DNA of 35,359 nucleotides. Origin: an uncultured Porphyromonadaceae bacterium (GTDB lineage Bacteria; Bacteroidota; Bacteroidia; Bacteroidales; Muribaculaceae). Positions 20,954 to 25,534 of the stretch are shown here, piece after piece (within the stretch, counting starts at the first letter, position 1; each line of letters opens with the position of its first letter). The notes under the pieces are model-generated. The model did not search any database. It was not told where the DNA came from and saw only the letters and a list, made by a program, of their open reading frames with translations. Location: assembly GCA_947176295.1 (NCBI GenBank), contig CAMWQB010000016.1, positions 1-35,359 of the forward strand. The letters run 5' to 3'. A program made the translations under genes and the position numbers.

Positions 20954-22858
20954 TCAGTAGGGGAAGGACTGGACGCGTGCGCCGAATGTGCGCTCGTAGT
21001 AGTCGACGAAGGCCTGATTGACGAGCCTCGTACCGCCGGGGGTGGGATAATCGCCGGAGAAATACCAGTCGCCGGGACAGCCGGGGACAGCCCTGTGCAG
21101 GCCGTCGAGTGTCTGATACAGGATGTCGGCCTTTGCGGTGAGCCTTTCGGGGGTGAGCATCGTGCAGATTGAGGCGGAAATTTCCTCGTCGGTGAAGGGT
21201 GCGTAGATATCCTTGACGTGGTTTATCCGAGCCTCGGGAGCATCGATGAGGACGGCGCGGCGGCACTTCTCGTATGTGTCGTGAATGAGCGACACCCTAC
21301 CCTGCTCCATGAGCAGGCGGATAGCCGCGCGGAAGGCAATGAGTTCTTCGAGACGCGGCATGTCGATTCCGTAGTAGTCGGGGTAGCGGACCTGCGGAGA
21401 GGAGCTGACAACGATGATTCGCTTGGGCTCGAGGCGGTCGAGAATGCGGAGGATGCTCTGCTTGAGGGTTGTGCCACGGACGATGGAGTCGTCGATGACG
21501 ACTATCGTATCCTGCTCGGGACGCACGGAGCCATATGTTACGTCGTAGACATGTGCGGCCAGGTCGTTGCGAGAGGTGCCCTCGGCAATGAATGTGCGGA
21601 GCTTTATATCCTTGATCGCAATTTTTTCGACCCGGACTTTCCGGCTGAGGATATCTGCAAGCTCCGGCGGGGTGAGCTTTCCGTGCTCGTTCAGGGCCGA
21701 GACTTCCTCGAGCTTGTGTGCATCGTTGATTTTCTCGAGTTCCTGCACCATTCCGATGAAAGCCACTTCGGCCGTGTTGGGGATGAAGGAGAAGACAGTG
21801 TCGTGCAGATTATTGTCGAGCATCTCCAAAAGCCGTGGCACAATGTTGGCTCCGAGGGCTTTGCGCTCGCGGTATATATCCTCGTCGCTGCCCCGGGAGA
21901 AATATATTCGCTCGAAGGAACAACGGCGGTTGGGGGCTTCGGGGAGAATCCTGCGGATGTCGACGCGACCGCTCTGGGTGATGATAAGGGCGCAGCCGGG
22001 CTCGAGCTCCTTGACCTCATCGGCGCGGACATTGAACACCGTGCGGATGACGGGGCGCTCGGAAGTGAGCACGGCAATTTCGTCGTTGCAATAGTAGAAT
22101 GCGGGACGGATGCCGTTGGCATCGCGCAAGGCGAAAGTATCGCCGGAACCCGTTGCACCGACAATCACGAAGCCGCCATCCCAGAGTGGGGAAACCTCTT
22201 TGAGGACGACCTCGACGCTGAGCTCGCGCTCGATGGCGCGGGAGAGCTCGGGATCGCGCACCACATTTCTGTACTTGCGGTAGACACGATGGTTCTCCTT
22301 GTCGAGTGCGTTTCCGATCTGCTCGAGGAGCAGAACCGTGTCGCCGTAAAGCCGCGGGTGCTGACCGGAAGAGACAATGTGTTCGAAAATCTCTCCGACG
22401 TTAGTCATGTTGAAATTTCCGCACAACATCATAGCCCTCGAGCGCCAGTTGTTGCGGCGGAGGAAGGGATGGGTATATTCTATCCCGCTTCGGCCGGTAG
22501 TGCTGTAACGGAGGTGGCCCATGTAGATTTCTCCGATGAATGGGGCGAGGGTATCGGCTTCTTCGGGGCTGAGGCTGTTGAGGTCGGAAGGCAACTCGCG
22601 TCCGATGTTTTGGAAAATCTCGTCTATTGCACCTGTGCCGAGGGCACGTTCGCGGAATACGTACTCGTGTCCGGGAACAGCGTTAAGCTTTACGACACCC
22701 ACGCCCGCCGCCTCCTGGCCGCGGTTGTGCTGCTTCTCCATGAGGAGATATAGGCGGTCGAGGGCGTATGTGTACGAGCCGTACTTGCGCTTATAATATT
22801 CCAGAGGCTTGAGGAGGCGTATGAGGGCAACGCCGCACTCGTGCTTGAGTTGTTCCAT
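20954..22858 (-). CDS. Long PurF-like glutamine amidotransferase/phosphoribosyltransferase
   Basis: A 634-residue protein from the ATG at 22856-22858. An Ntn glutaminase domain begins MEQLKHECGVALI; Cys8 would be the nucleophile after removal of a seven-residue propeptide. QHNRGQEAAGVGV (43-55) and GHLRYSTTG (114-122) match PurF. The oxyanion segment is CGNFNMTN (146-153), with Cys where PurF has Asn in NGN. The C-terminal half has the PRPP loop VVIDDSIVRGTT (about residue 455) and ends with CPGDWYFSGDYPTPGG. PurF makes phosphoribosylamine from PRPP and glutamine. At about 130 residues longer and with this change, it may be a paralogue. It is 10 bases after glnN. Confidence 0.8.
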   Translation of the reverse strand: MEQLKHECGVALIRLLKPLEYYKRKYGSYTYALDRLYLLMEKQHNRGQEAAGVGVVKLNAVPGHEYVFRERALGTGAIDEIFQNIGRELPSDLNSLSPEEADTLAPFIGEIYMGHLRYSTTGRSGIEYTHPFLRRNNWRSRAMMLCGNFNMTNVGEIFEHIVSSGQHPRLYGDTVLLLEQIGNALDKENHRVYRKYRNVVRDPELSRAIERELSVEVVLKEVSPLWDGGFVIVGATGSGDTFALRDANGIRPAFYYCNDEIAVLTSERPVIRTVFNVRADEVKELEPGCALIITQSGRVDIRRILPEAPNRRCSFERIYFSRGSDEDIYRERKALGANIVPRLLEMLDNNLHDTVFSFIPNTAEVAFIGMVQELEKINDAHKLEEVSALNEHGKLTPPELADILSRKVRVEKIAIKDIKLRTFIAEGTSRNDLAAHVYDVTYGSVRPEQDTIVVIDDSIVRGTTLKQSILRILDRLEPKRIIVVSSSPQVRYPDYYGIDMPRLEELIAFRAAIRLLMEQGRVSLIHDTYEKCRRAVLIDAPEARINHVKDIYAPFTDEEISASICTMLTPERLTAKADILYQTLDGLHRAVPGCPGDWYFSGDYPTPGGTRLVNQAFVDYYERTFGARVQSFPY

Positions 22859-22868
22859 TCGGGAGGAG

Positions 22869-25061
22869 TTATCGGATGAAGAGCAGTTCGCGATACTTGG
22901 GGAGGGGCCACATTTCGTTGTCGACCATAAGCTCGAGCTTGTCGATGTGGTAGCGGATTGCTTCCATGGGAGGGAGCACCTCGTTATAGTATGCCAGGGC
23001 TTTCTCGCGCTCGTCTTCGATGGCATTGGCCTTTTTGCGGGCGGCTACCATTTCTTCGACTTTTGAGTTGATGCCAAACATGTGGCGCGAGATTTTTTCG
23101 ATCATGTCGAGGTCGTGGCTTACGATTTCCGCACCTTTCTGTCCGGAGAAGAGGGTTTTGAGCTTCACAACATTGTCGACGAGCATCGACTGATAGCGGG
23201 TGGCCACGGGGATGATATGATTCATTGCGAGGTCGCCGAGCACGCGGGCTTCGATCTGGATCTTCTTGGTGTACATTTCCCACTTCACCTCGTTGCGGGC
23301 CTCGAGCTCGACTTTGGAGAATACACCGGTGCGCTCGAACATCTCGACGGATTCGGGACGGAGATATGCGTCGAAAATCTTGGGAGGGCAGGTCTCGCAG
23401 TCGAGGCCTCGACCTACGGCTTCCTTCTGCCACTCCTCAGAGTAGCCGTTGCCATCGAAGTGGATTGCCTTGGAATCCTTGAGGAGTGTGCGGACCTCTG
23501 CCAGGATGGCTTCCGTGAGCTTTTCGCCGCGGCCGAGACGCTCCTGTACGCGGGAATGGAATGTGTCGAGCTGGTCGGCAACGGCAGCGTTGAGGGCAAT
23601 CATGGCCGAGGCACAGTTTGCGCTCGAGCCTACCGCACGGAACTCGAAGCGGTTGCCGGTGAAGGCAAAGGGCGACGTGCGGTTGCGGTCGGTATTGTCG
23701 ATCATAAGATCGGGTATCTGAGCCAGGCCGAGGGAGTATTCTTCCTTCCCGGAGAGGCCCATGAGGTCGGCCATGGTGGAGTTTTCGATCTTCTCTAGGA
23801 CGTCTGAAAGGCGGCTGCCCGTGAATATTGAGATAATTGCCGGGGGGGCCTCGTTAGCTCCGAGGCGATGAGCGTTGGTGGCGCTCATAATCGAAGCCTT
23901 GAGGAGGCCGTTGTGCTTATGGACGGCAGCCATGACATTGGCCACGAAGGTGATGAACTGGAGGTTATCCTCTGGGGTCTTTCCAGGTGCGAAAAGGAGC
24001 TTTCCGCGGTCGGTGCCGAGGCTCCAGTTGTTGTGCTTGCCCGAGCCGTTGACGCCGGCAAACGGTTTCTCGTGCAGGAGGACACGGAAATTATGGCGGC
24101 GTGCAACCTCGGCCATGAGGGTCATGAGCAGGAGATTGTGGTCGTTGGCAAGATTCGTCTCCTCAAATACGGGAGCGAGCTCGAACTGATTGGGCGCAAC
24201 CTCGTTGTGGCGGGTCTTTGCGGGGATGCCGAGGCGATGACATTCAATTTCGAGGTCGAGCATGAATGCCTCCACGCGGGAAGGAATCGAGCCGAAGTAG
24301 TGGTCTTCGAGCTGCTGATTCTTTGGGCTTTCGTGGCCCATGAGCGTGCGACCGGTCATCACGAGGTCGGGGCGGGCGCTGTAGAGCGATTCATCCACGA
24401 GGAAATATTCCTGCTCCCAGCCGAGATAACTCTTGACGTGCTTCACCTCGGGGTCGAAAAGGCGTGCTACTTTTGCGCCGGCGATGTCGACGGCGTTGAG
24501 GGCGCGAAGCAGAGGGGTCTTGTAGTCGAGGCTTTCGCCTGTATAGGAGATGAAAATCGTGGGGATACAAAGGGTCTCGCCGAGGATGAATGCGGGCGAG
24601 GAGATGTCCCAGGCTGAATATCCGCGAGCCTCGAAGGTATTGCGGATGCCGCCGTTGGGGAAAGATGAAGCGTCGGGTTCCTGCTGAACAAGAAGCTTTC
24701 CGGAGAAGGTCTCCATGACGGAGCCTTTGCCATCGTGTTCGATGAATGCATCGTGCTTCTCGGCGGTGCCGTCGGTGAGGGGGTGGAACCAGTGGGTGTA
24801 GTGGCGTGCGCCATTGTCGGTGGCCCAACGCTTCATACCCTCTGCCACCGAATCGGCCAGGCTTCGCGAGATTGGTCTCTTATTTTCGATTGCATCGAGC
24901 AGGGCGTCGTATGTGTCCTTGGGAAGGTAGCGGAACATTGTCGCGCGATTGAACACTCGTTCGCCGAAATATTCGGTAGGACGCTCGGAAGGAAGGTCTA
25001 CGGACTGGGCTTTGCGGTCGTAAGCCTCTTCTACTGCTTTGAATCGTAAGGAACTGGACAT
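22869..25061 (-). CDS. glnN: Glutamine synthetase type III
   Basis: A 730-residue protein, the length of GSIII rather than the 450-residue GSI. It joins ammonia to glutamate with ATP to make glutamine, in a double-ring dodecamer. Seen are an N-terminal GSIII region with YFGERVFNRATMFRYLP, HWFHPLTDGTAEKHDAF (about 95-112), the metal-binding EVAPNQFELAPVFEE (about 265-280), NGSGKHNNWSLG (about 335-346) and FRAVGSSANCASAM (about 465-480). The frame is intact. It is followed by the glutamine-using PurF-like gene, and preceded by a long leader with a terminator hairpin just before the ATG, which predicts attenuation of the pair. Confidence 0.97.
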   Translation of the reverse strand: MSSSLRFKAVEEAYDRKAQSVDLPSERPTEYFGERVFNRATMFRYLPKDTYDALLDAIENKRPISRSLADSVAEGMKRWATDNGARHYTHWFHPLTDGTAEKHDAFIEHDGKGSVMETFSGKLLVQQEPDASSFPNGGIRNTFEARGYSAWDISSPAFILGETLCIPTIFISYTGESLDYKTPLLRALNAVDIAGAKVARLFDPEVKHVKSYLGWEQEYFLVDESLYSARPDLVMTGRTLMGHESPKNQQLEDHYFGSIPSRVEAFMLDLEIECHRLGIPAKTRHNEVAPNQFELAPVFEETNLANDHNLLLMTLMAEVARRHNFRVLLHEKPFAGVNGSGKHNNWSLGTDRGKLLFAPGKTPEDNLQFITFVANVMAAVHKHNGLLKASIMSATNAHRLGANEAPPAIISIFTGSRLSDVLEKIENSTMADLMGLSGKEEYSLGLAQIPDLMIDNTDRNRTSPFAFTGNRFEFRAVGSSANCASAMIALNAAVADQLDTFHSRVQERLGRGEKLTEAILAEVRTLLKDSKAIHFDGNGYSEEWQKEAVGRGLDCETCPPKIFDAYLRPESVEMFERTGVFSKVELEARNEVKWEMYTKKIQIEARVLGDLAMNHIIPVATRYQSMLVDNVVKLKTLFSGQKGAEIVSHDLDMIEKISRHMFGINSKVEEMVAARKKANAIEDEREKALAYYNEVLPPMEAIRYHIDKLELMVDNEMWPLPKYRELLFIR

Positions 25062-25278
25062 ATTGTATTAAGTTGAGTAGTGATGTGATTCAGATATAAA
25101 AAGAAGACGACCGCCCGAGCGCAGAGCAGCAGGGCGGTCGTTAAGGCTGATAGTGGGGCATGCGGAGAGGCGAGATGAGGCGGCCGACCGATTTGCAGCT
25201 CCTTTTGACGGACTGCAGCATCGACTAATGGCGCCACTGAATATTCTGCCGGAAAACATACCTTCGAAATTGATGGCG
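25062..25278 (-). promoter_or_regulatory. Structured 5' leader of glnN, candidate attenuator or regulatory RNA
   Basis: From the promoter at 25279-25309 to the glnN ATG is about 210 bases. In order of transcription it has a hairpin of TGCAGTCC pairing with GGAGCTGCA with one bulged base (25194-25217), then CGGTCG (complement of 25185-25190), then a terminator (25095-25141). The CGGTCG is complementary to CGACCG of the terminator's 5' arm, so it could act as an antiterminator. No recognised riboswitch consensus is apparent, and I see no second promoter between the terminator and glnN. This stretch holds no convincing gene. Confidence 0.55.
25095..25141 (-). terminator. Intrinsic terminator inside the glnN leader
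   Basis: A perfect 10-bp inverted repeat ACGACCGCCC/GGGCGGTCGT (25107-25116 and 25132-25141) with a 15-base loop. On the minus strand it is followed by CTTCTTTTTAT, a classical U-tract. It ends about 33 bases before the glnN ATG and downstream of the glnN promoter. On the plus strand there is no U-tract, so it acts on minus-strand transcription. Confidence 0.8.
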
Positions 25279-25309
25279 CAAAGGTAAGAATTATTTTCGG
25301 GTCCGCAAA
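25279..25309 (-). promoter_or_regulatory. Promoter of the glnN leader
   Basis: Minus strand -33 TTTG (complement of 25306-25309), 19 bases, then -7 TACCTTTG (complement of 25279-25286). Full Bacteroidota consensus, about 218 bases before glnN. Confidence 0.72.
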
Positions 25310-25417: not shown

Positions 25418-25489
<72 letters not shown>

Positions 25490-25498
25490 CAGAGAAAG

Positions 25499-25534
25499 AC
25501 CATCGGACCGAGAAGTCCGGTGGTTTTGTTTTTT
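25499..25534 (+). terminator. Intrinsic terminator after tRNA-fMet
   Basis: Arms 25499-25508 (ACCATCGGAC) and 25515-25524 (GTCCGGTGGT) form a 10-bp stem with one wobble pair and a 6-base loop, followed by TTTGTTTTTT. It lies 9 bases after the tRNA end and 12 bases before the MATE start. Confidence 0.85.

Follow-up and report, generated by a model that had tools for sequence, protein, structure and literature searches.

A leader open reading frame that spans a terminator and is purged of glutamine codons points to a probable translation-gated attenuator ahead of glnN in Muribaculaceae

The glutamine synthetase gene glnN of an uncultured Muribaculaceae bacterium (assembly GCA_947176295.1, contig CAMWQB010000016.1) is preceded by what is probably, judging by its sequence and those of its relatives, a conserved translation-gated attenuator, with an anatomy like that of the pyrBI leader of E. 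coli and a codon content opposite to that of the classical amino-acid attenuators. As read from the leaders compared, the intrinsic terminator lies inside an open frame, its arms covary, and the depletion of glutamine codons is confined to the part of the frame before the terminator. We infer that this frame is translated, that a ribosome on it keeps transcription from terminating and that the result depends on glutamine status; the trigger that we put forward, slowed transcription of a C-rich tract at low CTP, is more speculative.

Results

The glnN leader and the genes behind it

The features of the window (the whole stretch of DNA analysed, 35,359 nt) with which the argument is concerned are as follows, in the order of transcription.

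25279..25309, minus strand: Bacteroidota-type promoter, with TTTG at 25309-25306, a spacer of 19 nt and TACCTTTG at 25286-25279, from the sequence
near 25273, minus strand: predicted start site, placed from the promoter sequence
25068..25259, minus strand: leader open reading frame (uORF) of 63 codons plus stop, starting at GAAGGTATG, with zero glutamine codons in its translation
25194..25217, minus strand: bulged hairpin in the uORF, possibly an RNA polymerase pause hairpin, from sequence and comparison
25147..25186, minus strand: C-rich, G-poor tract (50% C, 17% G) directly 5' of the terminator
25098..25141, minus strand: intrinsic terminator within the uORF, with a perfect 10-bp GC-rich stem (25141-25107) and a U-rich tail to 25098
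22869..25061, minus strand: glnN, glutamine synthetase type III, the gene that the leader would control (Pfam GSIII_N, 1.8e-75, and two more Gln-synt domains)
20954..22858, minus strand: PurF-like glutamine amidotransferase gene adjoining glnN (TIGR01134 purF, 116 bits, below the cut-off of 350)

TTTG and TACCTTTG were named as a promoter from what we take to be the Bacteroidota consensus, and its elements lie where a preliminary description of this DNA had put a full promoter. That description gave the remaining elements of the leader at their correct places too but overlooked the uORF (25259-25068), which begins 14 nt past the predicted start site, passes through the terminator and stops 6 nt ahead of the glnN ATG at 25061 (minus strand). 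On the far side of the promoter there is a tRNA-Met gene (25418-25489, plus strand), then a hairpin with a T-run (25496-25527, plus strand) and a divergent MATE transporter gene.

Among the genomes compared the closest relative is L002, the glnN of which is 94% identical to that of the window. Much of the promoter, the terminator and a stretch of 19 bases, CATCAATTTCGAAGGTATG, which ends in the start codon and is identical in the two, are conserved, whereas the two ORFs have diverged in their middle part; the sole gap from start codon to terminator is one of 3 nt, before the terminator. The leader ORF of L002 has 62 codons and its stop lies 7 nt ahead of glnN. No conservation of the leader-ORF peptide sequence was found among the leaders compared.

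The PurF-like protein, which gave no Pfam match at 1e-5, is encoded by a gene that is probably co-transcribed with glnN. A relative of it stands beside glnN in 29 of 30 loci of the genus (in the thirtieth the contig ends within glnN) and in 17 of the 24 other loci of the family that were examined; it was found in 0/36 of the loci L099-L134, most of which bear the titles of other families, as far as the available flanks extend. This pairing of a glutamine-making with a glutamine-using enzyme may be particular to the Muribaculaceae.

Occurrence of the arrangement among relatives

Searches for glnN covered 49 genomes of the genus, 198 of the family and 149 of the order, with a match in 41, 173 and 116 of them, respectively. 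Leaders were read for 36 genus members; a fitting promoter was present in 31, with its box 152 to 345 nt 5' of glnN (chosen by hand in leaders with several candidates), and in 27 a terminator-like hairpin follows the first ATG. This ATG lies 10-26 nt past the predicted start in 26/31 leaders, and its frame is open through the end of the hairpin in 21/27, as against 5 and 6 for the remaining frames; when the sequence ahead of the hairpin was shuffled with its dinucleotides kept, 11.8 +/- 2.1 leaders were open, and none of 1000 shuffles reached 21. The exceptions, in which the frame of the first ATG does not span the counted hairpin, are L005, L009, L010, L023, L138 and L139 (6/27); each is spanned from a later ATG under an automatic rule, which is a weaker test, and in L009 the first ORF spans the first hairpin. 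Left out before this count were L028, L029, L030, L137 and L140, which have no fitting promoter-ORF layout, and L006, L018, L022 and L025 have no hairpin that passes its rule; in L014, L015, L020, L021 and L027 the hairpin chosen automatically for the frame count, or the limits set for it, differed from the terminator on which later counts were based. The automatic rule, which admits ATG starts only, returned 37 ORF-hairpin pairs from 30/42 leaders, some leaders being counted twice. It found no terminator in L006, L018, L022, L031 (where the tail is T-poor), L052, L071 and L142 and no spanning ORF in L025, L027, L037, L050 and L096; hairpin limits were set by hand for L009, L015, L021, L025, L027 and L136.

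Fifteen leaders, the window included, form group A, with a single ORF of 41-75 codons that reaches near the glnN start and a terminator that ends 31-59 nt ahead of the gene. In the seven leaders of group B, a short ORF encloses a long hairpin that comes soon after the ORF start. A second hairpin within a second ORF was found in L004, L007 and L009; hairpins stand in tandem before glnN in L004, L005, L007 and L009, and perhaps in L008 and L017, where the second ORF was seen by eye only. Compared with that of L025, the leader of L027 has an insertion, located between its first hairpin and glnN, in which CACGGATTACACGGATT-like units are repeated. Outside the genus, the same arrangement occurs in L034 and L036, and also in L031, the tail of which is too T-poor for the automatic rule. 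With hairpins judged by eye, the ORF stops about 7 nt before the hairpin in L197 and L195 and ends inside the 5' arm in L226, which belongs to another family. The g14 leaders L050, L052 and L195 (and L059) carry a short ORF (MKKIIKIFNIIIL in L195), the stop of which comes a few nt ahead of a strong, GC-rich hairpin; this may be a minimal form of the same gate. At many other Bacteroidales loci, viewed by eye, glnN lies close behind another gene and such a leader is absent.

The same architecture was sought ahead of other genes in 400 kb of one genus member together with the window. Of 114 genes with at least 120 nt upstream, 26 had a promoter box and ATG, 18 of these a terminator-like hairpin as well, and in nine, glnN included, the hairpin was spanned; by eye, and without a family search, several of the other eight resemble ordinary small genes (rpsU, for example) or have weak hairpins. 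A stricter scan of 110 genes left two candidates, neither spanned, and did not list glnN, which was probably masked by a long overlapping ORF.

The terminator, the upstream hairpin and the C-rich tract

The preliminary description had claimed a perfect 10-bp terminator stem with a U-tract before glnN; the stem is there, with a predicted fold of -22.9 kcal/mol, and its arms covary. Over the outer seven positions of the stem, 112 of the 119 possible standard pairs are formed (19 leaders, with 17 distinct arm pairs), against 58.3 +/- 6.1 when the 3' arms were dealt among leaders, with a maximum of 80 in 2000 deals. That the arms pair despite their changing sequence indicates that the terminator is maintained as a structure. 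The leader as a whole is more stable than its shuffles (z -2.9, 0/200 as good; z -2.25 and 2/200 for a slightly shorter stretch). The bulged hairpin, likewise described earlier, is present at 25194-25217, and a local hairpin upstream of the terminator occurs in 19/19 leaders, ending 9-89 nt before it; the sequences differ, and the stability of this stretch against shuffles is only a moderate signal (mean z -1.3).

In the stretch that begins 45 nt and ends 5 nt ahead of the terminator, mean base fractions in 19 leaders are 0.375 for C and 0.196 for G, and elsewhere in the ORF 0.257 and 0.226; the tract is the richer in C in 17/19 leaders, again a moderate signal (Wilcoxon p 4e-4). Group B leaders have no room for it. 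A U-rich, UTP-sensitive tract was not found before the terminator, T making up 0.16-0.24 of the last 60 nt in 16 leaders. As the tract is rich in C, the leader is not classed as a UTP attenuator; it may work alike with another nucleotide.

Glutamine codons in the leader ORFs

In 26 leaders, with one ORF-terminator pair each and L144 not included, CAA and CAG make up 3/832 codons from the start codon to the terminator in frame, versus 37/825 and 49/811 when the two other frames are read (Fisher 1.4e-12). Within the hairpin and beyond it the same leaders have 8/321 and 8/232, which is the usual level: in genes of a genus member glutamine accounts for 2.6% of the first 40 codons and 2.9% overall. 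The GlnN protein itself has 2.1% glutamine. Compared with the first 40 codons of 225 such genes, the pre-terminator deficit has a Fisher p of 2.5e-6. The pairs of the automatic rule gave 7/954 versus 45/946 and 52/928, the strongest deviation among the 20 amino acids, and 30 leaders (four added, L144 entering as L196) gave 4/955 versus 38/944 and 56/930, with zero glutamine codons before the terminator in 26/30 leaders and in 9/30 for each other frame. Seven of the 30 belong to group B and, as they have only 5-8 codons before the hairpin, their zero counts carry little information; group B alone has no significant deficit (0/49 before the hairpin; 4/219 over the whole ORF versus 8/212 and 7/212).

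Under a conservative null of position-specific base frequencies, 14.8 glutamine codons are expected (p 2.5e-4). Neither the near-stop codons (CGA, TGG) nor the histidine codons (CAC/CAT) are significantly depleted, and stop avoidance is unsupported as a cause of the deficit. A classical attenuator built on glutamine codons was rejected, these codons being depleted (3/832) relative to the 2.6-2.9% of genus-member genes. The codon pattern was spotted after the composition had been viewed, although glutamine was the only amino acid for which a reason had existed beforehand, and uORF starts were chosen by hand for the codon counts in L020 (GTG) and in L034 and L138 (a later ATG in each). Leucine codons, too, are under-represented in frame ahead of the terminator (43/832 versus 93/825 and 76/811), and serine is over-represented in this part of the leader ORFs.

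Antiterminator and known RNA families

In the window a CGGTCG strand at 25190-25185 is complementary to CGACCG of the terminator 5' arm and had been proposed as an antiterminator. It is not kept in L002, and complementarity to the 5' arm is no better than in shuffles across the 15 group A leaders (median p 0.52; window p 0.12; ungapped, 200 mononucleotide shuffles per leader); in the minimum-energy fold the upstream hairpin and the terminator coexist. An antiterminator switch was rejected because the pairing is not above chance in the 15 leaders and the strand is absent from L002. Of the earlier attenuator reading, what stands is an apparently conserved attenuator of glnN with a link to glutamine; the mutually exclusive pairing does not.

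Rfam 15 at gathering scores matched only the tRNA in the window, in agreement with the earlier statement that no known riboswitch is recognised; at E values up to 10 there was one further match, to a snoRNA model on the opposite strand, with 15 bits against a gathering score of 70. A riboswitch or other known RNA family was rejected, since the tRNA was the one useful Rfam match and since even the leader of L002 differs from that of the window in its middle part.

Discussion

The reading that we favour, and consider probable, is that the glnN leader is a translation-gated attenuator which works like that of pyrBI in E. coli. Transcription would start near 25273 and, without a ribosome close behind RNA polymerase, the terminator at 25141-25107 would form and stop it before glnN; a translating ribosome would cover the 5' arm, prevent the hairpin and let the polymerase enter glnN and the PurF-like gene. 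Were a ribosome to stall far ahead of the terminator, termination would follow, so glutamine codons in that part would defeat glnN in a glutamine shortage, and a uORF purged of them before the terminator should be translatable even when the cell is short of glutamine, which GlnN produces. Past the terminator such codons would be harmless under the gate model, and this matches the pattern of depletion that was observed. When glutamine is plentiful, our best guess is that fast transcription of the C-rich tract with ample CTP would lower read-through. CTP synthase uses glutamine to make CTP, which is the reason for this guess, and the C-rich tract itself suggests slow transcription at low CTP as the signal.

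A ribosome that keeps up with RNA polymerase is reported to stop intrinsic terminators from folding (PMC4824070, PMC10135430, PMC5021804), and in pyrBI the terminator lies inside the leader gene (pyrL), at low UTP the polymerase pauses, and the ribosome then catches up and suppresses the terminator (PMC10135430, PMC4824070). The two systems share a leader ORF that holds an intrinsic terminator before a structural gene; in pyrBI the coupled ribosome keeps the terminator hairpin from forming, and ahead of the terminator come a pause at a hairpin and a leader with a nucleotide bias (PMC10135430, PMC4824070), to which a possible pause hairpin and the C-rich tract would correspond in the glnN leader. 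They differ in gene, phylum and sequence, and in that E. coli senses UTP whereas the glnN tract is rich in C rather than U; the glnN leader ORF, moreover, is without codons for the product amino acid. However, ribosomes of E. coli are reported to suppress a terminator poorly if it lies within the first 100 nt of a gene (PMC4824070), and this counts against the gate reading.

As in the trp, his and ilv attenuators, a short leader ORF would here control an intrinsic terminator before an amino-acid biosynthetic gene. Those attenuators have cognate codons, a competing antiterminator and a leader ORF that ends before the terminator; in the glnN leader, by contrast, no antiterminator is supported, the ORF spans the terminator, and the cognate codons are depleted. 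Amino-acid leader-peptide attenuators are described as carrying regulatory codons (PMC1183508). The avoidance itself resembles the low cognate bias of biosynthetic enzymes, in which the amino acid of the pathway is avoided so that the response does not need it (PMC4209129), but here it lies in a regulatory leader ORF and ends at the terminator; in the survey concerned glutamine is given as having no low bias (median +0.7; PMC4209129). In Bacteroidota, long 5' UTRs of B. thetaiotaomicron have putative short leader ORFs reminiscent of attenuation leader peptides, though the case named in that account is BT_4401, not glnN, and its passage on them gives no terminator-spanning ORF or codon bias (PMC7366714). 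No description of such a glnN leader element was among the matches listed in the CC-licensed PMC literature, from which subscription journals are mostly missing.

Several other explanations deserve consideration. The same anatomy, that is an open frame, a deficit of glutamine codons and a covarying terminator, would be left by a constitutive translation check, whereby healthy general translation is all that the making of GlnN requires, neither nucleotides nor glutamine act as a signal, and glutamine codons are avoided only to keep glnN in glutamine shortage; in addition, the signals of the C-rich tract and the pause hairpin are only moderate, and group B is without room for the tract. Yet a gate without a signal would mean little regulation, and a related bacterium regulates glnN strongly, a 35-fold ammonium regulation being reported for glnN-2 of P. 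ruminicola in wording that is inconsistent as to direction (PMC5552732); we hold this explanation to be unlikely. A further view, compatible with the other readings, takes the in-frame glutamine deficit as a by-product of stop avoidance or composition that has no glutamine-sensing meaning. It draws on the conservative null, under which p is 2.5e-4 rather than 1e-12, and on the low leucine count, but the lack of significant depletion of CGA, TGG and CAC/CAT and the end of the deficit at the terminator within the same ORFs speak against it, and we judge it improbable.

We think it highly improbable that the leader is a classical amino-acid leader-peptide attenuator, or a riboswitch, with a terminator/antiterminator switch: the leader is long, its terminator lies near the gene, CGGTCG can pair with CGACCG in the window, and a few g14 leaders have by eye short ORFs that end just before the hairpin, but glutamine codons are depleted and not enriched, complementarity is at chance in 15 leaders and lost in L002, and no Rfam family was found. 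Glutamine riboswitches (the glnA RNA and the Downstream-peptide RNA) likewise put nitrogen genes under the control of a leader RNA; the glnN leader differs in having no Rfam match and no conserved aptamer that we could see. Very little probability is also given to the terminator ending a separate small RNA or small protein gene, with the start site of glnN downstream. A terminated transcript of about 170 nt would arise anyway, the sRNA candidates of B. thetaiotaomicron include 5'-derived ones (PMC7366714), and a sigma-70 scan gave one weak match past the terminator (25089-25062, 9 of 12, with 1.5 expected by chance in the region). However, that match ends at 25062, too late for a start upstream of the ATG, and transcription from it would begin inside glnN; between terminator and ATG no TAnnTTTG box is seen by eye, which upholds the earlier view that a second promoter is absent there. 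Moreover, the stop of the ORF lies past the terminator, unlike in a small gene with its own terminator, and the peptide is not conserved. The separate RNA of about 170 nt, offered earlier as an alternative, is disfavoured because the terminator is enclosed by a frame which is kept open and whose end adjoins glnN.

The translation-gated attenuator may be taken a step further, tentatively and with the odds somewhat against it, as an inverse attenuator: a uORF free of cognate codons would license glutamine synthetase when glutamine fails, the sensor would be the slowing of the polymerase on the C-rich tract as CTP falls, and attenuators built on the same principle may serve other amino acids in Bacteroidota. 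From a codon deficit that stops at the terminator it is predicted that added glutamine codons would matter before the terminator and not after it. To our knowledge few attenuators have been characterised in Bacteroidota. If the gate reading is true, this would be an attenuator that avoids its cognate codons, the reverse of the textbook enrichment; the pyrBI principle would be extended from the control of pyrimidines to that of glutamine, and nitrogen assimilation in common gut bacteria would be tied to the coupling of transcription and translation.
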